Origin: Candidatus Calditenuis fumarioli
GTDB taxonomy: Archaea; Thermoproteota; Nitrososphaeria_A; Caldarchaeales; Calditenuaceae
Length of the DNA stretch: 64,000 nucleotides
Assembly: GCA_030059665.1 (NCBI GenBank)
Contig: JANVYR010000001.1
Span: 480,191 to 544,190 of the forward strand
Reading direction: 5' to 3'
Both the position numbers and the translations under genes were made by a program. Position 1 is the first letter of the stretch. The number at the start of each line of letters is the position of its first letter. Positions 9,649 through 55,576 of the stretch are shown piece after piece. A model generated the notes under the pieces. That model worked only from the letters and a program-made list of their open reading frames with translations, did no database searches and had not been told where the DNA came from.

Positions 9649-9914
9649 GCTACTTCATCCATGGGTAGCCTCCAAGCCTCTGTCGTGTTGCGGAACCGGT
9701 CAACAGCAGCTTCACAACGTCTTTGTGGACTTCAAGGCCACCGACCGAATTGCTTGTACCATGTCCCGAGCTGACTTTGGAATTAGGCCTGTCCCCACAT
9801 CGCATCGGTACCGACGGGTCGACGGAAAGGGGCGTCGCCATGGTATCCGCAAATTTCCAATCGCCCCCGCTTCGGTCTTCAAGCGCTCGTTAGTGCGAGG
9901 TTAGTGATGTCAAA
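9649..9914. other. Intergenic stretch before the CRISPR leader
   Basis: Short open frames exist on both strands, but none has family resemblance or convincing start signals. I see only the promoter side of the preceding leftward gene and the approach to the CRISPR leader. Confidence 0.4.
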
Positions 9915-10140
9915 AGGCAACTAAGGTAATACCATTTTTCAGCAACTGATAAGTGCTCTGAATTGAGTTGATATTGAGATTCAATTTTTCGCGCAACGAG
10001 CAGCATATATAAATCATCTATATGAAATTTTCTGAAGACTACCCCCATCATCTTAAAATAGAGGTCAAAAGATTCATCCGTGCGAAGGGGTGGCGCGGCG
10101 GGAAGTCGCGCAGAGCCCGAAAATCCCGGAATCGGGAACG
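9915..10140 (+). promoter_or_regulatory. CRISPR leader (copy 1)
   Basis: This 226-bp segment directly precedes the first CRISPR repeat. It is AT-rich in its first half and has a strong TATA box TATATAAAT at 10006-10014, which predicts a transcript start near 10035 running into the array. Its last 60 bp are GC-rich and hold two potential hairpins, 10093-10111 and 10124-10137. An equally long, nearly identical copy lies at 54534-54759. Confidence 0.88.
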
Positions 10141-10444
10141 GTGATCCCGAGAGAGGGAGTTGAAAGCTGCTACCGGGATCGGCACGTCAATCTCCTCTAC
10201 CCATGCCCACGTGATCCCGAGAGAGGGAGTTGAAAGGACGCGGAGCAGAAGATCAGAAGTGGTGCGGTCAAGAAAGTATGTGATCCCGAGAGAGGGAGTT
10301 GAAAGGATATCATTCGTGGCCATGGCCCAGATCCTTAACCTGTCCCGGGTTCTTGTGATCCCGAGAGAGGGAGTTGAAAGCGTCAGTCTGGAGGTGTCAA
10401 AAAATACGTTACCAAAAAGTGATCCCGAGAGAGGGAGTTGAAAG
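10141..10444 (+). CRISPR. CRISPR array, 5 repeats and 4 spacers
   Basis: Five identical 26-bp repeats, beginning GTGATCCCG and ending GAGTTGAAAG, lie at 10141-10166, 10211-10236, 10280-10305, 10355-10380 and 10419-10444. The four spacers are 44, 43, 49 and 38 bp. The leader on the left and the 3' end GTTGAAAG, the typical 8-nt crRNA 5' handle of archaeal arrays, fix transcription to the right. Inside the repeat, CCC and GGG arms could pair around GAGAGA. The array is short. Spacer length fits type I or III systems. The type III operon begins about 3.2 kb downstream. No adaptation genes are in the window. Confidence 0.97.
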
Positions 10445-13530: not shown

Positions 13531-13620
13531 TTGGGGAACGGCAGCGTGTGTTTCGACAGGCAGACTGGTTCGACCGGTATACTCCGATATGAGCTGTTGA
13601 GGGAATCACCAGATCCTATT

Positions 13621-14112
13621 ATGAAATTGATGGCTAAACGACAAAAACCGCATCCCCTCACTGTCAACGGTTATCTATTGGATGGGAAATTCTTTGATGC
13701 CGTGACTCAGGTGAGACCTGGGTCTGGAGGCCCCACTCTGGACGTGGACGAAACTATGCTGGATTATGCGGTAAGGATCGGCACAACCGCGCAAATTAGA
13801 GGGATCAAAGGTCATCAAATGGAGCAGCTGATGGTTTCGCTCGACTCGATCCCAGACAAAAGACTAGCTCTGCTCGTCACCGCGATCTTTGCCATGAGGC
13901 AGGCGGAGAGGAAGCAATTCAACGCAGAAGCCGCTAGGATAGTGTCGGAGGCGATGAAATACCTGTACGAGACCAATAGGGACGTTGATTCAGCGAGGGT
14001 GCTCCTCGGCTTAGCCAAGTGGGTGTACGAGGCGTCAGAGGGCCTTCAACTGAACAGGCCCGTAGGATCCGCCAAGGAATTCGTGAACCTTCTCACGGGG
14101 ACGAGGCGTTGA
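13621..14112 (+). CDS. Type III CRISPR small subunit (Cas11/Csm2-Cmr5-like)
   Basis: This 163-residue protein (ATG 13621) is helical in its C-terminal two thirds (MEQLMVSLDSIPDKRLALL, ARIVSEAMKYLYETN, ARVLLGLAKWVYEASEG), like the small Cas11 subunits that line the crRNA-target duplex in type III complexes. Sequence conservation in this family is poor, so the call rests on size, helix content and position as first gene of the operon. The frame is open further upstream to 13531, but that part lies in the CRISPR remnant and is less likely to be translated. Its stop overlaps the next TTG start as TTGA. Confidence 0.6.
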   Translation: MKLMAKRQKPHPLTVNGYLLDGKFFDAVTQVRPGSGGPTLDVDETMLDYAVRIGTTAQIRGIKGHQMEQLMVSLDSIPDKRLALLVTAIFAMRQAERKQFNAEAARIVSEAMKYLYETNRDVDSARVLLGLAKWVYEASEGLQLNRPVGSAKEFVNLLTGTRR

Positions 14113-14831
14113 CGACCAACCTACGGCCTGAGGAGGTGCTCGACCTCGACGTGCTGAAGAGGCTGACGGTCATCAGGGGAAGGCTCAGGAACGAGACGCC
14201 GCTCAGGGTAGGGATTGGTCGCGAAGGTAGGCTCGGGTCGACGTCGGACATAACCGTCATTAGAACCAAAAGTCTGTGGGGCGAGGAGGTCCCCTACATA
14301 CCAGGGTCGAGCCTGAAGGGGGTCTTCAGGTCCTTCGTCGAGCAGCTCGCGAGGTCCGGGGGTTTGCAGGTTCACGACCCATGGGACTTCGAAGCGATGG
14401 AGCGGGAGGAGCGCGGGGGCTTCTGCGTCGTCTGTGCGCTGTTCGGCAGCACAAGAGTCGCCTCGCACGTCAGGATCTACGACGCCTTTCCGCCGGAGGG
14501 CAAAGTGCCAACTATCGTTTACAAGACCGGCGTGGGCATAGACAGAGACTTCCTCGGTGCCAAGCCGAACATCCTATACACGGAGGAGTTCGTGGAGCCG
14601 GGTAACGAATGGGAGTTCAGGATGGACGTGATCAACGTTCCCTTCCCTGACGGCGAAGATCCGCGGACGAGGTACCTGAAGGAGCTCCTAGACTCTCTGA
14701 AAACGATGGGGCTCCAGGTTGGTGCCAGGAAGAGCGTCGGAATGGGCCTGGTCAAACTGGTCGGGGGTACCTACGAAGTGTACGCGGTCGAGGGAGGGTC
14801 CGTCAGTAAGGTCTCGGAGGGGACGATCTGA
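14109..14831 (+). CDS. Cas7-like RAMP protein (Csm3 family), catalytic Asp present
   Basis: The 240-residue RAMP has the Csm3 pattern: strand GRLRNETPLRVGIG, then GSTSDITVIR, where the Asp aligns with the target-RNA-cleaving Asp of Csm3, then the signature YIPGSSLKGVFRS. A CVVCALFGS motif follows, likely zinc-binding and shared with its neighbours, then IDRDFLGAKP and VGARKSVGMGLVKL. It would form backbone subunits holding crRNA and cut target RNA. The TTG start at 14109 overlaps the small-subunit stop. Confidence 0.85.
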   Translation: MTTNLRPEEVLDLDVLKRLTVIRGRLRNETPLRVGIGREGRLGSTSDITVIRTKSLWGEEVPYIPGSSLKGVFRSFVEQLARSGGLQVHDPWDFEAMEREERGGFCVVCALFGSTRVASHVRIYDAFPPEGKVPTIVYKTGVGIDRDFLGAKPNILYTEEFVEPGNEWEFRMDVINVPFPDGEDPRTRYLKELLDSLKTMGLQVGARKSVGMGLVKLVGGTYEVYAVEGGSVSKVSEGTI

Positions 14832-14832
14832 G

Positions 14833-15726
14833 TTGAACGTCTACTGGACATCAGGAAGGCTGCTTCTGCGCGAGGTCGTCTTCGAGGCCGAGATGGTCAA
14901 CACGGCCCCGCTCAGGGTCGGCGTCGGAAGAACTGCACCCCTCAAAGCACCCGTTGACCTCGCGGTCATCCGGATCAGACGAAACGGAAATGCTGAGGAG
15001 CCCTACGTCCCAGGATCTTCGCTCAAGGGGGTCTTCAGGACCAACGCCGAATTACTACTTCGCTTCAAGCGTCCCCGCGTCGCGCCCTGCAGCGGCCTCT
15101 CTAAGAACACATGCATGAACGTCAAGACCATAGGCGACAAGAAATTAATGGACGCGGTACAGGATTTGCAGCAAGAGGGGAAGAGCGAGGATGCGATGAA
15201 GCTCTTCTTCGAGAACGCCTGCCTACTCTGCAAGGTCTTCGGTGCTCCCTCCTACGCGGGCAGGGTCGTCTTCCAAGACGCTTATGTCAAGGGCCCCTTC
15301 AGGCTGGGGTTCCGGACGGGCATCGCGATAGACCGGAGGACGGGTGCCGTCTTCGAAAGACAGCTCTACCAAGTGGAGTACGTCGAGCCAGGTGCCAGGT
15401 TCGGGCTCGTAGTCTCGGCGAGGAACCTCCCGAACTACGCCATAGGCCTGCTGGCGAGGGTGCTTTTCATGCTGCACCAGGGCGAGATCCGGATCGGCGG
15501 CTTCAAGACGAGGGGCTTCGGCACCGTCAGGCTGGAGAGCCCCATCTTGAGGGTGAAGAACTACGCCGGCGGACAGGACCTCGAGCCGCTGGAGGACGTC
15601 GACGCTCCCGTGAGGCTGGGCGACATCTTCTCGGTAGAGGACGGACAGCACGTCGCCCGCGGTGACCGGGCGTGGGAGGCCCTCCGGAGGTTCGCGGAGG
15701 TGTGGGACGCTGTCAAGCTCAGTTAG
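14833..15726 (+). CDS. Cas7-like RAMP protein, second paralogue
   Basis: The 297-residue protein repeats the RAMP plan: FEAEMVNTAPLRVGVGR, APVDLAVIR with the putative catalytic Asp, YVPGSSLKGVFRT, a cysteine motif CLLCKVFGAPSYAGRV and IRIGGFKTRGFGTVRL, the glycine-rich loop. It carries an insertion of about 60 residues after the PGSS motif with two more cysteines (APCSGLSKNTCMNV). The TTG start at 14833 follows the preceding stop by 1 bp. Together with its neighbours it would build the crRNA-binding filament. Confidence 0.83.
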   Translation: MNVYWTSGRLLLREVVFEAEMVNTAPLRVGVGRTAPLKAPVDLAVIRIRRNGNAEEPYVPGSSLKGVFRTNAELLLRFKRPRVAPCSGLSKNTCMNVKTIGDKKLMDAVQDLQQEGKSEDAMKLFFENACLLCKVFGAPSYAGRVVFQDAYVKGPFRLGFRTGIAIDRRTGAVFERQLYQVEYVEPGARFGLVVSARNLPNYAIGLLARVLFMLHQGEIRIGGFKTRGFGTVRLESPILRVKNYAGGQDLEPLEDVDAPVRLGDIFSVEDGQHVARGDRAWEALRRFAEVWDAVKLS

Positions 15727-15727
15727 A

Positions 15728-16660
15728 ATGATGGTCAGAAGGGATAGGCCGCGGGACAGGAGCCAGCTTTCTGGCGTACGGGGACTCCTCCGAATGAGGA
15801 TCAGGACGGAGGGCTACCTCCACGTCGGAAGCGGGCTAGAGCGGCTTGAGATCCCTCCCGCGGACAGGTTGAAGGAAGAGCTGAGGAGGTACGGATGGAA
15901 CGCTGCGGTCGAGCGATTGTCCCGTGAGATCTCGAGGGGCTTCATGGAGATGGTCCTCGTGAACGGGAGGCCGTGCGTTCCTGGCTCGAGCGTGAAGGGG
16001 AACGTCAGGTCCCGGATAGAGCTCAGCATCGTTGCGAGGAACGGCGCGGTCAGGTCCTGCTACGTCAGGGCGTCGCCACCGCAGCTCGCGTCTGACAGGA
16101 GGGCGTGGCGTCACAGGGCGATCTGGGGCAATGAGGTGCTGAGGGAGGACAGGGGACCACCATGCGACCTGACGAGAGGGAGCAGCGTCTGCCTGGTATG
16201 TGACCTCTTCGGAACCGCAGGGTTGAAGGGGCTGATCGAGTTCGGCGACTTCGTCGGCGAGGACGTCGAGCTGGAACCCGTCGAGGGACAGTTCGGGCTG
16301 AAGCTCATGGCCGCCAAACCGGGCTCTCAGTTCATCGGGAACGTGTCGTTCACCAACCTCAGGCCCTGGGAGCTGGGCTTGCTTCTCTTCGGCATGGGCA
16401 TCAGGAACGGGCCTGTGGGCGAGCAGGTCCTTCTTGGTCGGCTCAAGTACGTCGGCGCAATCGGAAACAGGCCCATCGGCAGGGTGAGGTACGTACTCGA
16501 CGCCATCGAGCTCTCGCAGTACTCGGAACCGCTCTTCGACCTGAAACCCGGTCAGGTGCGGAGCGGCGAGAGCCTGAGCGGTGTCATCGTGAAACTGATG
16601 GAGGAGCTGAGGAAAGAGATGGGAGAGGAGCTGAGGTGGTCTGTGAAGGAGGTCAGGTGA
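15728..16660 (+). CDS. Cas7-like RAMP protein, third paralogue
   Basis: The 310-residue protein shows RIRTEGYLHVGSG, CVPGSSVKGNVRS, CLVCDLFGTAGLKGLIEF and the glycine-rich segment VLLGRLKYVGAIGN. Between the first strand and the PGSS motif lies an insertion (ERLEIPPADRLKEEL and onward) in place of the compact xxxD segment of Csm3, so the catalytic Asp is not evident. It starts at ATG 15728, 1 bp after the previous stop. The longer insert may be a capping (Csm5-like) or specialised subunit. This is inference. Confidence 0.78.
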   Translation: MMVRRDRPRDRSQLSGVRGLLRMRIRTEGYLHVGSGLERLEIPPADRLKEELRRYGWNAAVERLSREISRGFMEMVLVNGRPCVPGSSVKGNVRSRIELSIVARNGAVRSCYVRASPPQLASDRRAWRHRAIWGNEVLREDRGPPCDLTRGSSVCLVCDLFGTAGLKGLIEFGDFVGEDVELEPVEGQFGLKLMAAKPGSQFIGNVSFTNLRPWELGLLLFGMGIRNGPVGEQVLLGRLKYVGAIGNRPIGRVRYVLDAIELSQYSEPLFDLKPGQVRSGESLSGVIVKLMEELRKEMGEELRWSVKEVR

Positions 16661-16661
16661 G

Positions 16662-19352
16662 ATGCCGCTGGAGTTCAGGTCCCCCGGCTTCCCGGTGTTC
16701 AAGGCACACGTCGTCCCTTTGCGCGGAGGCCACCACTCTGCCGAGATGACGGAGCAGGACGTGCGAGATTGGGAAAGGGTTCTGTACTTGATGAACCAGT
16801 TCCTCCGGTTGCTGACAGGAATCTCCGAGAAGATGAAGGTTGATCGCACCAAGCACGAGAGGTACGAGTTCATCGGCGACGCGATAACGTGGTTCCTCAG
16901 GATACCTCTGATGAGGGCTCCGCTGATGGGCCTTGTTCCTCACCCCTTCACCTACTACATGGTGTTCAGGCTCATGCACCCGAGGACGGGGAAGGAAGTC
17001 GAGACCGACACGTTGACCTTCGTTGAGAGGTGCTTTGAGTACAGCGAAACAGCGGAAAGGTTGAGCGAGACAGTCCACGAAGTTACGAAATTGCTCGGCA
17101 GGCTCTGGTTCAGGTTGCCGGCGGACACTAGACCCGTGTACAACACCTCTGGACTCATACCGCACATGCTCCTGACATCGGCGATAGCCTGGGGTATGGT
17201 GGCCGACAGGGGCTTGAGCCGGGAAGACGCTGGGAAGCTGAGGCTCTCGGCCGTCTTCCACGACGCCTCGAAGCCCTTCGACTTCGAGCGACATTATTGT
17301 TTGGCGCCCGACGTCATCCGCATCGCTCTGGACGGTGTACTGGCAGAAAAGGACATCGCTGAGCTTGAGTCATTCGTGAGGACTCACCACCTCCAGTCGG
17401 AGACCGAGCTGGGCAAGGTGCTGCATCAGGCGGACGTCATCGCAGCGGCATCCGACAGGCTGAGCTCGATCGCAAGGGAAGTGATCTATCCGAAGATCAG
17501 GGAGATGGGGGAAAACCCAGAGGTGGGATATGGCTCCGGGTCCTCAGCCTGGGAGTTCTGGAGGCAGCTGGAGCGCAAGAGGCCGGGGACGATGCTCGAG
17601 CTCACCGAGGAGGGCGCTAGGGCGGTCCTGAGTTCCGGGGTGAAGTCGCTCAGGAGAAGCGCTGCTGCAGAGAATCACGAGACCAACCTTGACGTCTGCC
17701 TCATCGATGTTGGCTCCATACAGGACTTCGTCATGGGGAGCAGCGATTTAAGGTCGGTTGCAGCCGCGAGCCTCGCCGTCGACTTCGCGACGCTGGCACA
17801 CATACCGCTTCTGATCCAGTTCACGCTCTCAGACGAGAACGTCTGGGTACCGCTCGAGGCCTTCATGGTGGTCTCCGGCGGAACCATAACCGCCCTCCTT
17901 CCGCGCCGTGTGGCGGATCGGCTCAGGAGGGAATGGAGGGAGAGGATCGCACGGCACCTGGACGAGATCGAGCTCCGGACCTACTTCGCATCCTCGCCGT
18001 TCACCGGGAACTACGTGAGGGACTCGGCAGAATTGGCAAAAAGGACGTACATCGAGAAGCTGGTTTCGGAGCCAGCGTCGATCAAGGTCCAGGTTCCCGA
18101 GGTGAGGGGGTTCGCGCCGAGGCTGTGCGTCAGCTGCCACACGAGGCCAGCCACAGATGAGGAGGGAAGGTGCCACGTCTGTGCGAAGCTCCGCAGGATC
18201 GGGACCGAATTTCACTTCGGTAAAAAGTGGAATTCAGGATTCGAGCTGACGGTCGACGGTCGGACCGAGCAGATCGTCCCGCGCAAGTGTTACGAGATGG
18301 AGTGGGAAAGGGCGAGGGAGGGCGACGTGATGTACGTGATTGCCGGTCACGATGGCCCGTTCCTCGAACCCGGCGAGAGGGAGCGGAACTACGCAGTCGT
18401 GAAGGTCGACGGTAACCTGATGGGCCCCTTCTTCGCGGAGACAGTCTCGCCAACAGACCTCCTCGAGCGGAGCGCGAGGGTCGACATCGCCCTGAAGTCC
18501 GCGATCGAGATGGCCTTAGCTGAGCTCTTCAGCGAGGTGAGCGGGATCTCGCAGGACGATGCGAGGAAAGCGGTGGCAGCCTGCTTCCTCGGGACGCTCT
18601 ACGCAGGCGGTGACGACGCCCTCATCCTGTGTCCGAGCTGGTGCGCCATCCACCTCGCTTCCAGGGTCTCTCAGCACTTCTCGGAGGAGCTCGGTGGTGT
18701 GAGGGCGCTTAGCGCAGGTGTTGCTGCCGCACCTGCGGAGCACAGCGTCTGGGCGCTGATCGAGGCTGCCTCCTGGCTGCTCGAGGTGGCTAAGAAAAAG
18801 GTGGGACGCGAACAGCCATCGGTTGGCGGCATAGCGTTCGACTTCGTCGAGGGTGGAATCCTCTCAGGTTCGTCGGCCGCGGCGAGACACGCGAAGGCCG
18901 AGGAGGCAGGGATCACCCTCCAACCTTACGCGATTTGGGACTCCGGTTCGAGGCCGAACCTCTCAGAGCTGATGGGGACGTTGCTGAATGACACAGGTTT
19001 CGGTTACGCGTACAAGGCATCCCGCGTCAAAGGAGGAAGTGAATACGAGGAGGTGAGGAAGTACCTCAAGAGGCTGAGGGAGGCTGCGGTCGAATCGATC
19101 GGCGTCTCCCGGAACTTCGCGGGCATCTCGTCCGGATCCGAGGTACTCGTGATACACGTAAGCAGGATGGCTGCTAGGGAAGGGAGCGAATCGGCTGAGC
19201 AGTCCGAACGTCTATCGGCTAAGCGGTACGAACGTCTGATGGAACTCGTGAGGTGGTCGATCTCCCGCGCAATGGTCGAAGGTGGCAGGCTGGCGGTCCC
19301 GCTCGCAGACGTCCTCACCCTGATCAAGTTCCTGGGAGGTGGAACGATGTGA
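16662..19352 (+). CDS. cas10: Cas10, large subunit of a type III CRISPR complex
   Basis: The 896-residue protein has an N-terminal HD nuclease domain (His200-Asp201 in AVFHDASKPFD, with THH near residue 242 and HQAD near 255), a first Palm domain, a zinc motif with Cys489, Cys492, Cys504 and Cys507 (CVSCHTRP, CHVC), and a second Palm with GGDD at residues 649-652 (TLYAGGDDALIL). HD predicts single-stranded DNA cleavage. GGDD predicts synthesis of cyclic oligoadenylate on target RNA binding. Both look intact. It lies in mid-operon and its stop overlaps the next GTG start. Confidence 0.95.
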   Translation: MPLEFRSPGFPVFKAHVVPLRGGHHSAEMTEQDVRDWERVLYLMNQFLRLLTGISEKMKVDRTKHERYEFIGDAITWFLRIPLMRAPLMGLVPHPFTYYMVFRLMHPRTGKEVETDTLTFVERCFEYSETAERLSETVHEVTKLLGRLWFRLPADTRPVYNTSGLIPHMLLTSAIAWGMVADRGLSREDAGKLRLSAVFHDASKPFDFERHYCLAPDVIRIALDGVLAEKDIAELESFVRTHHLQSETELGKVLHQADVIAAASDRLSSIAREVIYPKIREMGENPEVGYGSGSSAWEFWRQLERKRPGTMLELTEEGARAVLSSGVKSLRRSAAAENHETNLDVCLIDVGSIQDFVMGSSDLRSVAAASLAVDFATLAHIPLLIQFTLSDENVWVPLEAFMVVSGGTITALLPRRVADRLRREWRERIARHLDEIELRTYFASSPFTGNYVRDSAELAKRTYIEKLVSEPASIKVQVPEVRGFAPRLCVSCHTRPATDEEGRCHVCAKLRRIGTEFHFGKKWNSGFELTVDGRTEQIVPRKCYEMEWERAREGDVMYVIAGHDGPFLEPGERERNYAVVKVDGNLMGPFFAETVSPTDLLERSARVDIALKSAIEMALAELFSEVSGISQDDARKAVAACFLGTLYAGGDDALILCPSWCAIHLASRVSQHFSEELGGVRALSAGVAAAPAEHSVWALIEAASWLLEVAKKKVGREQPSVGGIAFDFVEGGILSGSSAAARHAKAEEAGITLQPYAIWDSGSRPNLSELMGTLLNDTGFGYAYKASRVKGGSEYEEVRKYLKRLREAAVESIGVSRNFAGISSGSEVLVIHVSRMAAREGSESAEQSERLSAKRYERLMELVRWSISRAMVEGGRLAVPLADVLTLIKFLGGGTM

Positions 19353-19996
19353 GGAGGTTCACCGTGAGGCTAAGGCCGATCGGGCTCCTGACGGTCGGAG
19401 GCTCTCATCCGGAGCTGGCCGGCGCTGACATCGCGTTCGTCACCACATCGGTGGACGGCCGGGAGGTGGTCTACGTTCCGGCGTCGAGCTTCAAGGGCGC
19501 GCTCAGGTCGTCCGCCAGCAGGGTAGCCGAGAGGTACGGATTCAGGTCGTGCGGCCAGACGAGCCCAGAGCTGATGCAGAGGGCCCACGCGGGATCCGGG
19601 ACGTGCGACGTCTGCAGGCTCTTCGGCGTCCCCTCGAGGAACCCGAGCCAGCACCTGTTCTTCGACGACCTGCTTCCGGATGGGAGCCTGACGTCTCGTC
19701 AGCTGATAACGCGGGTCAGGATAAACGACCGCTCGATGAGGGCCGAGGATGGCGGACTTTACACATCGGAGGCCGTCTATTCCGGCGAGTTCACAGGTCA
19801 GGTGAGGTACAGCGAGGAAGTCGTTGAGCTGCTTCCGCTCCTGCTGCTGGGCCTCGCGGAGCTGAGGATGGACCGCTTCGGTCGGAGGTCATCGGTGGAC
19901 CTGAGGCTGGAGGGGACTGACCAGCTGAGGCAGGACCTCGGGCGTGAGTGGCACCCGCTGCTGGACGCTCTGGAGGGATGGCTTTGGCAGCCCTGA
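19349..19996 (+). CDS. Cas7-like RAMP protein, fourth paralogue
   Basis: The short 215-residue RAMP has RLRPIGLLTVGGS, LAGADIAFVTT with an Asp at the catalytic position of Csm3, YVPASSFKGALRSS and CDVCRLFGVPSRN. A later MDRFGRRSSVDLRL segment takes the place of the glycine-rich loop. The GTG start at 19349 overlaps the cas10 stop by 4 bp. It is the smallest Cas7-like unit of the operon, and its Asp makes it a candidate RNA-cutting subunit. Confidence 0.8.
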   Translation: MRRFTVRLRPIGLLTVGGSHPELAGADIAFVTTSVDGREVVYVPASSFKGALRSSASRVAERYGFRSCGQTSPELMQRAHAGSGTCDVCRLFGVPSRNPSQHLFFDDLLPDGSLTSRQLITRVRINDRSMRAEDGGLYTSEAVYSGEFTGQVRYSEEVVELLPLLLLGLAELRMDRFGRRSSVDLRLEGTDQLRQDLGREWHPLLDALEGWLWQP

Positions 19997-21105
19997 GGGT
20001 TTACGAGGTGAGGGTGAGGATCCTGAGCCCGACGATAATCACAAGGCGTAGGACGGAGAACGGCTTCCTCGGGCCCCTCGACTACATACCGGCCCAGACG
20101 TTGAGGGGTGCGGTCGTCAGCTCGCTCTTCATGGAAGGGCTGATGGACCGAAACAGGATGAGGGCAGAGGAGGAGGTGCCGACGGTCTTCTCGAGCCCAG
20201 CCTATCCTGTCATCGGTGGAGCGAGGACCTACCCCGCTCATCCGTTCGCGATGGAGTGCAAGGTCTGCGCTGAGAAGGGAGAGGCGACGCTCGTTGGCGA
20301 GCTGGACCCGACGAAGCTGGAGGATTCCCTTGCGGAGCAGCGCGATCTCGAGCTCGTTCCGGTCGAGTGCGGGAGCGGCCACAGGGCCCTCAAACCCCTC
20401 CACCCGAACAAGTTCCTGGTGCTCGAGGGAGGGAAGTTCTCGGCTCCGAAGGAGAGAAGGGGAGGCGCGAGGGCTGAGGGTGGGGGCCGTGCCAGCGCGG
20501 AGAAATCCCACTCGGTCTCTGTCGCGATCAGCAGGGGCAGGGCCGCGGGCATCAAGGGCATGCTCTACCACTACGAGTTCCTGATGCCGGGGAAGGAGTT
20601 CTGGGCGACGCTGGTCCTCCCAGCGGAGCTGAGCATTCCGGGAAACGGTCTCCAGCTAATGATCGGACGCGGCGTCTCGAGGGGCTTCGGGAGGGCGAGG
20701 ATGCACGTCGTGGGTGAGGTGACCTCCTCCTTCAGCGGAACCGTTAAGGTCCTCTACGCTCTCTCGCCAACGCTTGGAGCCTCCGACGGTAATTCCACTT
20801 ATCCTTCCACAATAGAACTGCGTGATGTTGCCCGCAGGTTCGGGCTTGAGGCGGAAAGGACCGTTCGCGTATCGAGGGCCTACGGCAGGACGGTTTGGGT
20901 CAGCGCGGGCTGGAGCATGGTCCGAGGGGAGCCGAGGCCCAGAGTCCTTTGCAGGGCGCAGGGATCGCTACTGGTTTTGGAAGAACAGGTGGAGGGCGAG
21001 GCGTCGAAAGCGTTATCGCTGCTGAGGTACACGGGAACGGTGACCGAACTGAATGGCCGGAAGGTCTTCGGCTTCAATCACCTGGTGCCCCTGGGGTGTA
21101 TGTGA
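19978..21105 (+). CDS. Csx10-like RAMP protein (Cas5 group, type III-D)
   Basis: This 375-residue protein starts with YEVRVRILSPTIITRRRTEN, followed by LDYIPAQTLRGAVVSSLF, the variant RAMP motif common in Csx10/Cmr3-type Cas5 proteins. It ends its core with the glycine-rich loop IGRGVSRGFGRARM. A cysteine pair (CKVCAEKG) and a further cysteine in VPVECGSGH suggest a zinc-binding insert. A Cas5-like subunit binds the crRNA 5' handle and contacts Cas10. This gene is the main reason for calling the operon III-D-like. It overlaps the preceding gene by 19 bp (ATG 19978). Confidence 0.75.
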   Translation: MALAALRVYEVRVRILSPTIITRRRTENGFLGPLDYIPAQTLRGAVVSSLFMEGLMDRNRMRAEEEVPTVFSSPAYPVIGGARTYPAHPFAMECKVCAEKGEATLVGELDPTKLEDSLAEQRDLELVPVECGSGHRALKPLHPNKFLVLEGGKFSAPKERRGGARAEGGGRASAEKSHSVSVAISRGRAAGIKGMLYHYEFLMPGKEFWATLVLPAELSIPGNGLQLMIGRGVSRGFGRARMHVVGEVTSSFSGTVKVLYALSPTLGASDGNSTYPSTIELRDVARRFGLEAERTVRVSRAYGRTVWVSAGWSMVRGEPRPRVLCRAQGSLLVLEEQVEGEASKALSLLRYTGTVTELNGRKVFGFNHLVPLGCM

Positions 21106-22082
21106 TGCACCTCAACTCCCTCCGGTACAAGACCGTGGCGGTCTTCACCTTCCGCGTCAGGAACCCCCTCCACATCGGGACAGGCGAGTTCGGAGCCGTC
21201 AAGAGGATACTGAGGATCGGCGACGGAGTCCTGATTCCCTCCTCAACGTGGAAGGGCGCCATCAGGAACGTGGCTGAGAAATTGGCTCGAGGCATGATAG
21301 CTCAGCTCGGTGGCCTCGAGAGGTTGGCGCTCGCATGCTACCGGGAGGAGTCCGGGGAAATCCGTTACGAACTCGACAGAGGACACCTGGAGCGGCTCTT
21401 CGGGCATGAGCGGGCCGCGCTGATCGAGGAGGAGTACAGGAGGGCGAGGGAGGAGTTCAAGAGGATTCTGAGAGAGCAGCTGGAGATCTACTTTAGAGGG
21501 GACGGGCTGGACGGTATCGGGAATGAGCTGAGGACGCTTCTCGACATCGGTTACAGGCCGGAGGATCTGACCGACCACAGGAGGTTCCAGCTCGACGAGG
21601 CGTTCGCCGAGTACCTCGCCTACCACTGCCCGATCGGCCGCTTATTCGGCAATAGAGTGCTTTCGGGAAAGGTGAGACCCCAGGACACTCTCCTGATGCC
21701 CGAACGGATAGAGCTCAAGCCGGGCGTCGGGATCGATCGGAGGTCCGGAAAGGTCAGCGAGGGGCATCTGAGGTTCCTCGAGACGATACCGCCTGGAACA
21801 GAGGTGAAACTCACGCTCGTCGCGGACAACCTCTTCCCGGGCGATGCGGACTCGAGGCTGATGGCAGGGGTTCTCGAGTGGATCAAGGATTTGGGGCTTC
21901 AGATCGGCACTGGGAAGAGCACCGGACTGGGTCTGCTCGAGCTGGAGAGCGGCGAGGTCTGGCACTGGGAGCTCGGCGGGGACGCTGACTCAAGGGGAGC
22001 TGTCCTCGCGAACCCGTTCAGATCCGGCCTCAGGCCCATGGACGTCAAAGCCTTCGTCTCCCTGCTCAGGTCGGTAGGGTGA
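21105..22082 (+). CDS. Cas7-like RAMP protein, fifth paralogue, no catalytic Asp visible
   Basis: The 325-residue protein has FTFRVRNPLHIGTGE, then AVKRILRIGDG with no Asp at the Csm3 cleavage position, IPSSTWKGAIRN, CPIGRLFGN (only one cysteine of the motif kept), GVGIDRRSGKV and IGTGKSTGLGLLEL. A charged helical insert of about 120 residues follows the PSS motif. It starts at ATG 21105, sharing one base with the previous stop. A Csm5-like end-cap role fits the lost Asp and the insert but is inference. Confidence 0.78.
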   Translation: MHLNSLRYKTVAVFTFRVRNPLHIGTGEFGAVKRILRIGDGVLIPSSTWKGAIRNVAEKLARGMIAQLGGLERLALACYREESGEIRYELDRGHLERLFGHERAALIEEEYRRAREEFKRILREQLEIYFRGDGLDGIGNELRTLLDIGYRPEDLTDHRRFQLDEAFAEYLAYHCPIGRLFGNRVLSGKVRPQDTLLMPERIELKPGVGIDRRSGKVSEGHLRFLETIPPGTEVKLTLVADNLFPGDADSRLMAGVLEWIKDLGLQIGTGKSTGLGLLELESGEVWHWELGGDADSRGAVLANPFRSGLRPMDVKAFVSLLRSVG

Positions 22083-23581
22083 TGACAGCGGCCCAGGCGT
22101 CGGGCGTCCGACCCAAGAGGCTCATCGTCTATCAGCTCCTGGGGAAACTAGAGACCTACAGGGTGACCCGGTACAGAGTGGGGGGCAGTGGTCGTGAGGT
22201 GGAGAGCTGTTTCTCCTCCGTCGCGATAGCAGATCACTACGCATTTGATCAGGGGATATCCGAATGCGAGATCAGGTTCTTCGCGCCCATAAGCCTCATC
22301 TCCCCGCGGACGGACTCGAACGGCTTCCTGGACCTGGAGGTCTTCAGGGAAAAGATAGATGCATGGATCAGGCGGGTTGAGAAGGACGTTCGCTGGAGAG
22401 CTGAGATCGTCCCGCTACCCGCCTTCGGGAGCTACAAACCTGAGGACGGCGATCAGACCGTCTGGACCTACAACGCGACTCTCGGTTCCGTCGCAGCTGC
22501 TGCGCTGGTGGACATGTTGCGGTCGACGCACCTCATCAGGGAAAGGGACCAGGAGGTGCATCTGGTGCTAAACGTCTCGACCGGTCACAACTCCTACATA
22601 CCGTCGCTGATCGAGGCCCTCAAGGCTTTGCTGGTGCTTGACGGCGCTCTGTCGCTCGGAAAGGGGGGCGTCGTGGTCGATGCCTGCTATGCAGCGGTGG
22701 ACGCGATGCGGCAAGAACCCGGATCGGTGCTGAACGTCTACCTGCTCAAGACCTCGGCGAAGTTCTTCATCGACTATCCCTTCGAATGGAAGGACATTGG
22801 GGGGAAGAACTATACGCTCAAAGAGCTTTGCCGTGAGTCGGCAAATGTTCTACCCGAGACTCTTAAGATCGAGGCCAGACCTGTTCTGAAGCGAACGAAT
22901 AAAGTCCTAGTCAAGGGGTTAAAGGCCTTTAACGCGTTCAGGTACGGAGCTCCTCTGGCGCTGCTGGACCGGAGACTGATCTCACTGGACTCACAGGAGG
23001 CCCTCGGATGCGCGGAGGAGGTCTTGAGCTTGGTCGATAAGATCCTGAGACCGACCGTCTCCGGGACGGTGATCTCGGTCCCCTATGTGGACTTCAACCA
23101 GCTGAGGTCGCTTCTGATCGCGTTCGCCATCGCTGCAGCCATATCGAGCAAGGTCTCGGAGCTGGGTGACTTTGATCCCCAGAGAGGTGTTCCGCTGGAA
23201 ACGTTAGAAAGGTTCTCCCGCCTCTACGAGGATCTACCCGAGCTGAAGATCAACTCGAGACTGCTTTCGAAGGAGCTGCTGGAGCTGAAAACGCTCTCGT
23301 CTGAGGTCTCTTCAACAAGTTGGCAGAAGCTGAAAACTCTTAGGGAGCAGCGCGAGGCGAAATCCAAGGAGGGGGCGCTGAGGAAGGAGAGGCCCTCTCG
23401 CGATGACGAGAAATCCGAAGGGAAGGGATATCCCCAGACAAGCGACGAGAAGAGGAACTTCTACGCCCACGCAGGCCTGTCGAGGAACGAGGTCGAGGTG
23501 ATGAAGGAGGGAGAGAAGATCCTTCTGAGATACAACGAGGACCGGATACCTGTGATAAAGAATTGGTTGCTGGAGCCCTAA
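22079..23581 (+). CDS. csx1: Csx1-type CARF-HEPN ribonuclease
   Basis: The 500-residue protein joins an N-terminal CARF domain (ligand loop in LVLNVSTGHNSYIPSL) to a C-terminal HEPN domain with the R-x4-H ribonuclease motif at Arg459-His464 (RNFYAH). Csx1 proteins bind cyclic oligoadenylate made by Cas10 and then cut RNA non-specifically. It follows the RAMP genes with a 4-bp overlap, so it is expressed with its activator source. A charged linker (about residues 415-455) separates the HEPN active site. It is somewhat longer than many Csx1 proteins. Confidence 0.88.
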   Translation: MMTAAQASGVRPKRLIVYQLLGKLETYRVTRYRVGGSGREVESCFSSVAIADHYAFDQGISECEIRFFAPISLISPRTDSNGFLDLEVFREKIDAWIRRVEKDVRWRAEIVPLPAFGSYKPEDGDQTVWTYNATLGSVAAAALVDMLRSTHLIRERDQEVHLVLNVSTGHNSYIPSLIEALKALLVLDGALSLGKGGVVVDACYAAVDAMRQEPGSVLNVYLLKTSAKFFIDYPFEWKDIGGKNYTLKELCRESANVLPETLKIEARPVLKRTNKVLVKGLKAFNAFRYGAPLALLDRRLISLDSQEALGCAEEVLSLVDKILRPTVSGTVISVPYVDFNQLRSLLIAFAIAAAISSKVSELGDFDPQRGVPLETLERFSRLYEDLPELKINSRLLSKELLELKTLSSEVSSTSWQKLKTLREQREAKSKEGALRKERPSRDDEKSEGKGYPQTSDEKRNFYAHAGLSRNEVEVMKEGEKILLRYNEDRIPVIKNWLLEP

Positions 23582-23636
23582 TGATCGCAATTCCCGATCT
23601 GGGTTAAGGCTGGTTTTTGGTGGCGAAGGAACCCTA

Positions 23637-24446
23637 TCATGGGTCAGAGAAGGCCACCCAGTAGATCACCCTGCCGAATTCGGTCATCTCGTACTTGCCG
23701 TCCCTCTCCCTGATCAGCATGAGGTCCTCGAGCATCCGCTCGGCGACCTCCTTACCGTACCTCCTCTCGAACTCTGACGCATCCATTGACCCCCTGCTGA
23801 GGTCCATCAGCGCAGACCTGTAAACCCTATCGAGGACGTCCTCCCTCCAATCGATCGGGAGCGGCGGGATGAAGACGGTGGTCCTGAAGTCCTCGTGCCT
23901 GTAGTAGACCGGCTTGCCCATGACGAATGCCAGGATGCTTAGGGCCGTCCCCTCGGGCTTGTATCCGCCGGTCGCGTTGACCAGGACCGCATCTTCCCTG
24001 TGCTTCTTGATGAGCTCGTGCGTCACGAGCAGGAGGTTCTGGAGGCCCCTCTCCCTGAATTCCTCCTCGTTCCTGAAGCCCTCGATCCTCCTCCTCTCGG
24101 CCCTGATGCCCGATCTGTTCAGGTGCCGCTCGAGAACCGTACCGCAGACCTCTCCCACCTCCGTGTCCGTGTGGAGGAGATAGACCAGATCCACGAGCCT
24201 CCTATCGATGTGCTCCGACATCGAGGTTAGCTCGGCGCATGCCGCGTTTCCTTTTCGTGAGACGTACGAGAGCAGCGCCTCGACCAGCTCCCTTCGAGTG
24301 GGCCTTCCGTCCCTGAGGGCGTTCTCGACGTCCCGCACGCTCGATGCGTTGGGGAGCAGCTGTTTGACGTTCTGGTCATCCCTCAAAGCGTTCGTCAGCA
24401 GGCTCGCGCCTACCGTGACTATGTGGACGCGAACCCTCCTCGGCAA
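23637..24446 (-). CDS. CARF-domain protein (APE2256-like), possible ring nuclease
   Basis: The protein has the CARF signatures VHIVTVGASLLTNALR near the N-terminus and AVLVNATGGYKPEGTAL, followed by a winged-helix-like end (YGKEVAERMLEDLMLIRERDG). This layout matches the APE2256-type family that includes ring nucleases of the Sso2081 (Crn1) kind, which degrade cyclic tetra-adenylate, though a transcription-factor role is also possible. I prefer the TTG at 24446, preceded by AAGGTGG and a TATA-like TTATAG. An ATG at 24527 would add 27 Arg-rich residues. It converges on csx1 with a 55-bp gap and has its own promoter. Confidence 0.75.
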   Translation of the reverse strand: MPRRVRVHIVTVGASLLTNALRDDQNVKQLLPNASSVRDVENALRDGRPTRRELVEALLSYVSRKGNAACAELTSMSEHIDRRLVDLVYLLHTDTEVGEVCGTVLERHLNRSGIRAERRRIEGFRNEEEFRERGLQNLLLVTHELIKKHREDAVLVNATGGYKPEGTALSILAFVMGKPVYYRHEDFRTTVFIPPLPIDWREDVLDRVYRSALMDLSRGSMDASEFERRYGKEVAERMLEDLMLIRERDGKYEMTEFGRVIYWVAFSDP

Positions 24447-24773
24447 GTCGGGCCACCTTCGGTTCAGGCGGATGGCCCGGCCTATAAGAGCGTTCCGAGA
24501 CTTTCTGACGTCACGGGGTGAGCGCATCTTCCTGAAGTTTTGATGTGTTATCGTGCTGCATTCATAGCCTCCAAATCCGCGAACTCCCTCACATCAACCT
24601 CCTGATGGAGATCCAACCCGATCCGCATCCCGTGCCGCCCTCTCTCCGAACGCATTACCCACGGCTCCTCCAGGGACTCATCGGGGTCCATTTTTCAAGC
24701 TGCGGGTGTGAGTTACGGGGATCGGCGAACAGCGCAATGGCGCTCCCTGCGATGACCTAGGGTTTCTCCGACG

Positions 24774-54007: not shown

Positions 54008-54073
54008 GGGTCGTGTGGTGAACAGTCACAGATTAGAATTTGCTCGGTCGGAGCTTCCAGAAACGCAAATCCG

Positions 54074-54145
54074 TGGACCGGGCGGGACTCGAACCCGCGA
54101 CCTCCCGGGTGCGAACCGGGCGATCTGCCGCTGATCTACCGGCCC
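54074..54145 (-). tRNA. tRNA-Ala (anticodon CGC)
   Basis: On the minus strand, GGGCCGG pairs with CCGGTCC and includes the G3-U70 wobble, the Ala identity element. The anticodon stem CCCGG/CCGGG encloses TTCGCAC (anticodon CGC), and the T arm CGGG-TTCGAGT-CCCG follows. No intron is seen, and CCA is not encoded. Confidence 0.93.
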
Positions 54146-54362: not shown

Positions 54363-54533
54363 GCCTAGGAGTTGGTTCAGTCCGCTGCTATCCCTTTCGA
54401 TGCCGAGACGAGCGTTTGTAAAATTTTGGTTGACGGCGTGAACGGGAAGGGGACGTCGTTATCAGATCCGTAGATCTCCGGTCATCCCCTGCTCGGCCTC
54501 TACTCGTCGGTTTGGCGTACGGTCGATAGCAAG

Positions 54534-54785
54534 AGGCAACTAAGGTAATACCATTTTTCAGCAACTGATAAGTGCTCTGAATTGAGTTGATATTGAGATT
54601 CAACTTTTACCTCATCGAGCAGCATATATAAATCCCCTAAATGAATTTTGCTGAAGACAACCCCAATCATCTTAAAATAGAGGTCAAAAAATTCATCCGT
54701 GCGAAGGGGTGGCGCGGCGGGAAGCCGCGCAGAGCCCGAAAATCCCGGAATCGGGAACGGTGATCCCGAGAGAGGGAGTTGAAAG
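54534..54785 (+). CRISPR. Second CRISPR leader with a single repeat
   Basis: Bases 54534-54759 repeat the leader at 9915-10140 with exactly the same length and about 14 mismatches by eye, including the TATATAAAT box (54625-54633) and both hairpins (54712-54730 and 54743-54756). One 26-bp repeat identical to those of the array follows at 54760-54785. No second repeat follows; the sequence runs into the CoA-transferase gene end. It is either an array seed or an array that has lost all spacers. Confidence 0.88.
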
Positions 54786-54820
54786 TCCATATCAACGAAT
54801 CGCGTGGGGAGCGAGTAGGG

Positions 54821-55576
54821 TCAAGCCCTCGAGAAGGGCTTGGTCCTGAGGTTTTCGGGGTCGAGGCGCGCTATCACCTCCCTCTCCTCCCTCGTGGGCT
54901 CCCGCGTGGGCGGTGCATCCCTGCCTGTGACGTCGAAGCCGGTGGACGCGATCACCTCGTCGACGGATGACCAGGGATGGACCGACAGGAGCCTCCACGC
55001 CCTTTTCTCCCTCTCGTGCTCGAGGAGGCAGAGGTCTGTGCAGAGCAGGACCCTGTTGGACGCGTTCCTGGCGGTGGCGGTGACGAAGTCGACCCGCCTG
55101 ACGAGGCTTCTTGGACCGTGCCTGAAGTTCCACAGGACCGCCTTCCTGACGAGAGGGAGTATGAAGGCAGCAGCCGCGCCTCCGGGCAGCCTCACCTTCG
55201 GGCTCTCGAGCTGGCCGATGACGGAGACGTTGACGTTCGCATCGGAGTCGATCTGCGCCGGTCCTAGGAACATCACGTCCACCTTGCCCTTCTGGGCGAG
55301 GTCGAAGGCGTCGACCGTTGGCATGACGGCCCCCAGACCAGCCAGCTCAGGGTCACCGGTGGAGCGCTTGACCTGGATGTCCGCCAGCGACGGCTCGTAA
55401 CCCTCCGCGACCGTTGTGACCCTGATCCGCTTCCCGTGGACGAGCTTGGCGACGGCCGCCGCGAGCAGAGCGTGGTGCGAGTTGAGGCCCACGAAGACCA
55501 AGTCGCCGTCGGAGAGGAGGTCCGCCATGCAGGTCACTATCAGGTCCGCAGCGTAAGTGGGGTCCCGGAAGGCCAT
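54821..55576 (-). CDS. CoA-transferase beta subunit
   Basis: The 251-residue protein has DGDLVFVGLNSHHALLAAAVA, AVMPTVDAFDLAQKGKVDVMFLGPAQID, VRLPGGAAAAFILPL and STGFDVTGRDAPPT, which match the beta chains of glutaconate/IpdB-like or 3-oxoacid CoA-transferases. The matching alpha subunit is absent at this locus. It shares one base with the acetyl-CoA synthetase gene, suggesting one message. The single CRISPR repeat lies 36 bp beyond its stop. Confidence 0.8.
   Translation of the reverse strand: MAFRDPTYAADLIVTCMADLLSDGDLVFVGLNSHHALLAAAVAKLVHGKRIRVTTVAEGYEPSLADIQVKRSTGDPELAGLGAVMPTVDAFDLAQKGKVDVMFLGPAQIDSDANVNVSVIGQLESPKVRLPGGAAAAFILPLVRKAVLWNFRHGPRSLVRRVDFVTATARNASNRVLLCTDLCLLEHEREKRAWRLLSVHPWSSVDEVIASTGFDVTGRDAPPTREPTREEREVIARLDPENLRTKPFSRA

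Follow-up and report, generated by a model that had tools for sequence, protein, structure and literature searches.

A CRISPR leader with a single repeat on an archaeal chromosome is probably a collapsed array

Positions 54530–54785 of the 64,000-nucleotide window (the whole stretch of DNA that was analysed, from Candidatus Calditenuis fumarioli) carry a CRISPR leader that ends in one repeat. This site, called locus B here, is probably an array that collapsed by recombination between its first and last repeats and kept the leader and exactly one repeat, with no spacer. Collapse of an array to one repeat was predicted and built in the laboratory before, with refilling being inferred, while here a chromosome seems to have been caught in the collapsed state. 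Locus B is ordinary in kind and a useful natural example, and no report of it was found in the open-access literature (titles, abstracts and passages). The graded loss of its sister arrays and a shortened cas1 allow one to ask if a memory family that lacks an integrase of its own can do no more than decay, or if a neighbouring system refills it.

Structure and neighbourhood of locus B

In a self-comparison of the window, the leader and first repeat of array A (9911–10166) recurred at 54530–54785 over 256 bp with 15 mismatches and no gap. All 15 mismatches fall in the leader and none in the repeat. The initial annotation had given the copy as 54534–54785 against 9915–10166 and had proposed a base-by-base alignment of both leaders; this was run and confirmed an ungapped copy with 14 mismatches in 252 bp on recount. 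Its further statement that no second repeat follows position 54785 held when both window strands were scanned and up to 7 substitutions allowed: the 26-nt repeat was found only at the five positions of array A (10141–10444) and at 54760–54785, all of them exact. The features of both sites are as follows.

9911–10140, plus strand: leader copy A
10141–10444, plus strand: array A with five exact repeats and spacers of 44, 43, 49 and 38 nt
54073–54145, minus strand: tRNA-Ala gene, upstream of leader B
54414–54512, plus strand: diverged upstream block, homologous to the stretch 5' of leaders A and C (local alignments)
54530–54785, plus strand: locus B with one repeat
54530–54759, plus strand: leader copy B, which aligns with leader A over 230 bp without gaps and with 15 mismatches
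54623–54634, plus strand: TATA-like element CATATATAAATC, identical in leader A at 10004–10015, predicted promoter
54672–54680, plus strand: second AT-rich element TTAAAATAG, in the alignment the counterpart of TTTATATAC in the leaders of the 24-nt repeat family
54760–54785, plus strand: single 26-nt repeat GTGATCCCGAGAGAGGGAGTTGAAAG, 0 mismatches to the family consensus (26/26)
54786–54820: the 35 bp that separate the repeat from the stop codon of the CoA-transferase gene
54816–54848, plus strand: predicted 14-bp hairpin over the CoA-transferase stop codon (RNA fold)
54821–55576, minus strand: CoA-transferase subunit gene (PF01144, 4.9e-22), full length and convergent with leader B

We take CATATATAAATC in leader B to be TATA-like by its resemblance to the familiar motif, and its function as promoter is predicted. 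With its one repeat, locus B is not a CRISPR array in the sense of at least two repeats parted by spacers. It is a leader-repeat unit of its own 26-nt family, as leader and repeat both match, and the leader with the lone repeat is joined directly to the trailer flank, as in a collapsed array. A spacer and a second repeat cannot fit 3' of the repeat because the stop codon of the CoA-transferase gene is too close. By eye, both repeat families (window 54748–54772 and the 24-nt leaders) allow pairing between the leader end and the 5' half of the first repeat, namely, CGGGA with TCCCG and GCGAGATTCC with GGAATCTCGC. These pairings recall the leader-repeat hairpins that type II-A and type VI systems have according to the available part of one source (PMC13187072).

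Locus B is surrounded by tRNA-Ala, amidohydrolase, CoA-transferase and acetyl-CoA-synthetase-like genes, and no open frame of at least 100 aa was found between the tRNA-Ala gene and leader B. The CoA-transferase gene that had been noticed beside the repeat is real by its PF01144 match; it scored 51–55% to its four closest homologues over approx. residues 5–248 of 251. The gene upstream of it is of an AMP-binding, acetyl-CoA-synthetase-like kind and does not encode a second CoA-transferase subunit. The missing alpha partner of the initial annotation has no shown link with the repeat. Two further CoA_trans genes are present elsewhere in the genome (C2:383311–383910 and C2:239900–240493). Each of the three lies close to a CRISPR locus, with distances of 35 bp in the window, ~0.5 kb and ~0.3 kb, respectively. 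The chance that three random 750-bp genes all lie within 533 bp of CRISPR loci is ~5e-6 for this pattern, which was noticed post hoc, and the geometry is not alike in any of the three cases. At the CoA-transferase loci of nine relatives (2.7–3.8 kb each), none had three or more spaced exact 18-mers, a measure that one- and two-repeat loci would escape.

The 26-nt repeat family in the genome

The whole genome (G000; 1,567,119 bases in three contigs, scored 91% complete) was searched with leader and repeat for further members, as had been suggested, and four more leader or leader-remnant places were found outside the window. The 1.57-Mb genome thereby has six places with the 26-nt repeat: five carry 8, 5, 3, 2 and 1 repeats and the sixth is a remnant. 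With at most 3 mismatches allowed, the repeat was matched 19 times and the reversed control not once, so that chance is excluded. The remnant, place F, is outside these 19 matches and was picked up by BLAST.

C1:307166: locus C with 8 repeats, the last four mutated
C2:384554: locus D with 2 repeats, both mutated
C2:414626, minus strand: locus E with 3 repeats, all mutated
C2:174093: place F with a leader tail and one damaged repeat

Leader E lacks 57 bp, the TATA-like element included. Several near-identical, scattered leaders, some of them with very few repeats, are also found in the long and short repeat units of Methanocaldococcus jannaschii. The exact 26-nt repeat had no match in a named genome collection, which may omit the window's own genome. 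A mobile unit with a fixed right end was considered and dropped as unproven; D, E and F seemed to be shortened at their 5' side, but D and E share no upstream homology with the other copies.

A truncated cas1 and probable decay of the family

Directly 3' of an intact cas6 and beside array E, a cas1 fragment of 82 codons was found. It is 65–68% identical to Cas1 of three relatives and 31% identical to the type I-A Cas1. Apart from ~4 codons that do not align, its sequence runs up to the last repeat of array E. This array is on the opposite strand, antisense to cas6-cas1, and touches cas1 codon 82 with that repeat (G000 C2:414049–414448, corresponding to L051 6050–6449). In the relatives G014, G017 and G027, which belong to the same order as the window genome, cas6, cas1 and cas2 are consecutive and are followed downstream on the same strand by 42, 3 and 1 repeats of the 26-nt type, respectively, those of G017 and G027 sitting at contig ends. 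Given the antisense position of array E, a simple deletion in the arrangement of the relatives seems insufficient to explain it. The break of cas1 at array E could stem from a deletion ending in a spacer.

The search for cas1 and cas2 that had been proposed gave one complete Cas1 gene besides the 82-codon fragment and one Cas2 gene. The only complete Cas1-Cas2 pair found in the genome is that of the type I-A locus, and no cas2 matching the 26-nt family was found in the three contigs. A missed cas1-cas2 is possible because the three-contig assembly is 91% complete. These results weaken one of two earlier suggestions for locus B, a pre-array that still accepts spacers, while the other, an array stripped to its seed, fits best. 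The 26-nt family likely no longer refills through its own integrase.

The type I-A locus (~C2:266300–276900) encodes Csa3, Csa5, Cas7, Cas5, Cas8a, Cas3 helicase and nuclease, Cas6, Csa1, Cas1, Cas2 and Cas4, with Csa3 and Csa5 below the NCBIfam cut-off and a weak match for Cas8a. It has another repeat, GAATCTCGCGAAGAGAGTTGAAAG (24-nt family), which is present in five arrays of 12, 17, 18, 20 and 15 repeats. A lone repeat GAATCTCGCAGAGGGAGTTGAAAG with 3 mismatches to the 24-nt repeat was seen at C1:159299–159322 of G000 (L070 1800–1823); no second copy is listed near it and no leader was found in the preceding 400 bases.

Compared with the five 24-nt arrays of the same genome, the 26-nt arrays are significantly smaller (8, 5, 3, 2 and 1 repeats; Mann-Whitney p 0.008). 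Exact repeats make up 10/19 in the 26-nt family, where 9/19 are mutated, and 78/82 in the 24-nt family (Fisher p 2e-5). The first repeat is copied at each spacer gain; it is mutated in D and E and in 0/5 of the 24-nt arrays. At the array ends, C, D, E, N117, N362 and N265 have an altered last repeat, and A, N241 and N277 an intact one.

Spacer lengths point, though indirectly, to the lost integrase of the 26-nt family. With a mean of 43.4 nt (n = 14), the spacers in the genome's own 26-nt arrays exceed in length those in its 24-nt arrays (mean 39.9 nt; p 0.0018), for which n is 71 of 77 as one array was cut by the fetched stretch. They showed no difference in location to the 26-nt spacers of relatives (p 0.14; n = 54, with 41 from one of four G014 arrays and 13 from G017), which in turn differ from the own 24-nt spacers (p 2e-6). 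The variance of the just 14 own 26-nt spacers is higher than that of the relatives' spacers (Levene p 0.03). By these lengths, the spacers of the sister 26-nt arrays were probably inserted by the lost integrase and probably not by that of type I-A.

Probable collapse to a single repeat

We infer the following course. The truncated cas1 beside array E would have been the integrase of the 26-nt family, and as long as it worked, locus B would have held spacers like its sisters. Recombination between identical first and last repeats would have removed all of them. Without an own integrase, spacer loss would not be refilled and losses would accumulate. Since the integrase of the family is truncated, one repeat would be an end state that is unable to shrink further. 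The promoter of leader B is predicted to fire still and Cas6 may cut the lone repeat, which would give an RNA without foreign guide, and locus B would therefore add nothing to immunity now.

Collapse is supported by the exact lone repeat with nothing after it and by sisters with 8, 5, 3 and 2 repeats and a remnant. It is opposed by the repeat of locus B, which equals the consensus and carries no last-repeat mutation, while the last repeat is altered in 3/4 of the other 26-nt loci with at least two repeats. Arrays of 2–10 repeats are also listed in G017 and G027, which have an intact cas1, although many of these are cut by contig ends; this likewise counts against collapse. In the near-complete G014, all 145 matches are in four arrays of 36, 15, 42 and 52 repeats (the last with 53 at up to 4 mismatches) and none is single. 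Groups of 1–10 repeats are among the matches listed for G017, G027 and G029, and the lone repeats in G029 C26 and G027 C300 are at contig ends and hence uninformative. As the short groups in these three genomes are often cut by contig ends, G014 is the sole clean comparison.

A single repeat is named as the product of recombination between first and last repeats in the available part of a review (PMC8047081). The Legionella experiments model a collapse to a single repeat, and a coincident related system could refill the locus, according to the accessible passages of that study (PMC7056967). This "catastrophic collapse" of type I-F and locus B are alike in the one repeat, in the recombination between first and last repeats, which is probable for locus B, and in the second system in the cell. 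As those passages have it, the Legionella collapse was built in the laboratory and inferred from refilled-looking arrays, with working cas genes (PMC7056967). Locus B, in contrast, shows the one-repeat state itself, on an archaeal chromosome and with a truncated cas1 of its kind.

Mini-CRISPR arrays borne by the viruses SPV1 and SPV2 resemble locus B in their host-like leader, very few repeats and lack of adjoining cas genes, but hold 1–2 spacers and lie in virus genomes, as far as the source is available (PMC6858448). A virus-borne mini-array was rejected for locus B, which is spacerless and lies between ordinary chromosomal genes. The stand-alone CRISPR repeats of archaeal viruses and plasmids are single as well, yet have no recognisable leader in the same excerpts (PMC6858448), whereas locus B has a full leader.

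Alternative explanations

Collapsed and never-filled arrays look alike because no trace of a former spacer is present at locus B. The leader and first repeat could have been copied here as a seed that awaits its first spacer, likely to be inserted in trans by the type I-A Cas1-Cas2; we regard this as unlikely. The intact leader and the exact consensus repeat are in favour of it, and so are the private substitutions of leader B (8), which are no more than those of the array-bearing C (8) and D (13); A has 5 and E also 5, over 199 columns only. Judged by sequence, leader B shows no extra decay compared with its sister leaders. It is no less intact than the leaders of filled arrays and could therefore still be in use.

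The age of the copy speaks against such a seed. In local alignments of ~100 bp, the upstream block is identical at 79/98 positions between B and C, 61/82 between A and B and 75/97 between A and C. The upstream flanks of A, B and C are 74–81% identical (19–26% different), values that local alignments flatter, compared with 92–94% (6–8% different) for leader and repeat. The contrast gave Fisher p values of 3e-6 (A-B), 1e-4 (A-C) and 4e-3 (B-C). Of 2000 draws from the window, true sites included, 2 to 5 reached the scores of the flank alignments; over 700 bp, the score was reached by 0/200 (B-C), 1/200 (A-B) and 1/200 (A-C). Since the upstream flank is far more diverged than leader and repeat, B is unlikely to be a recent copy, and yet it is spacerless. 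Recent duplication, one of two earlier suggestions for the near-identity of the leaders, is thus disfavoured. The other, strong selection on the leader, fits the contrast, as would gene conversion between copies, and the similarity of the leader sequences would be kept by either. Among 60 other genomes searched with the leader, of which three genus mates are 57–77% complete, two matched (G017 and G029), with the repeat part only. For G014 and G017, two array leaders each were aligned with the own 26-nt leader, and none scored above shuffles (the score was reached by 49 to 251 of 500).

Insertion in trans is favoured by a CCCGGAA motif beside the repeat and an AT-rich element, which both leader families carry. 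It is opposed by their lack of alignment above shuffles over 230 bp (137/500 reached the score; one 24-nt leader tried), by the truncated cas1 of the family with no second Cas2 found and by spacer lengths in the sister arrays that are unlike those of type I-A arrays.

Quite doubtful is a standby memory site, for which leaders with one intact repeat would be kept by selection after the family lost its integrase, so that they could be refilled in trans by the type I-A Cas1-Cas2 and serve the type III-D effector. The effector concerned lies in the window.

13531–23581, plus strand: type III-D-like effector locus with Csm2-like, several Csm3-like Cas7, Cas10, Csx10-like Cas5 and Csx1

It is likely the user of the 26-nt crRNAs, as inferred from its place 3 kb from array A. 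Ten proteins were scanned at this locus and none was Cas1 or Cas6. A separate CARF protein is also present in the type III-D-like region (window 13531–24527).

It is very improbable that locus B is kept for its RNA, a leader transcript with one Cas6-cut repeat that would act as small regulatory or decoy RNA. The leader is conserved beside a diverged flank, which would suit such a role, but this is explained by the same leader preceding ordinary arrays. An intact cas6 lies beside array E and hairpins are predicted, with a 14-bp stem from 30 nt past the repeat and a z of -4.18 for the whole folded stretch (54675–54850, 176 nt). The hairpin at 54816–54848 is a possible end of the B transcript in this model. 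Compared with letter shuffles, however, the 75 nt 3' of the repeat alone had a z of -1.29; among ten locus ends only D was lower (-2.07), and the predicted hairpin is no outlier among them.

An assembly effect, with spacers lost or flanks swapped at near-identical leaders, would be conceivable for five leader copies that are >89% identical in every pair, but is hardly to be expected as the copies differ every ~10–22 bases on average, no spacer occurs twice and B is flanked by ordinary genes, a full-length CoA-transferase among them.

Viral matches

The leader-repeat fragment and the 24-nt repeat had no viral match. The exact 26-nt repeat and a degenerate form of it matched one viral contig only, L091 (IMGVR_UViG_3300025067_000009). 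Its positions 14390–14616 hold the start of a D12-type DNA methyltransferase frame, then the exact 26-nt repeat and, up to the end of the contig, another 42 nt. A mini-array on this contig was rejected; the sequence resembles an assembly that passed from a virus into the array of a host. This probable chimera would mark the virus as target of a host with the 26-nt repeat. Spacer N241_9 of the 24-nt family in G000, the rest of which had no match, matches L091 594–616 exactly with the last 23 of its 41 nt.
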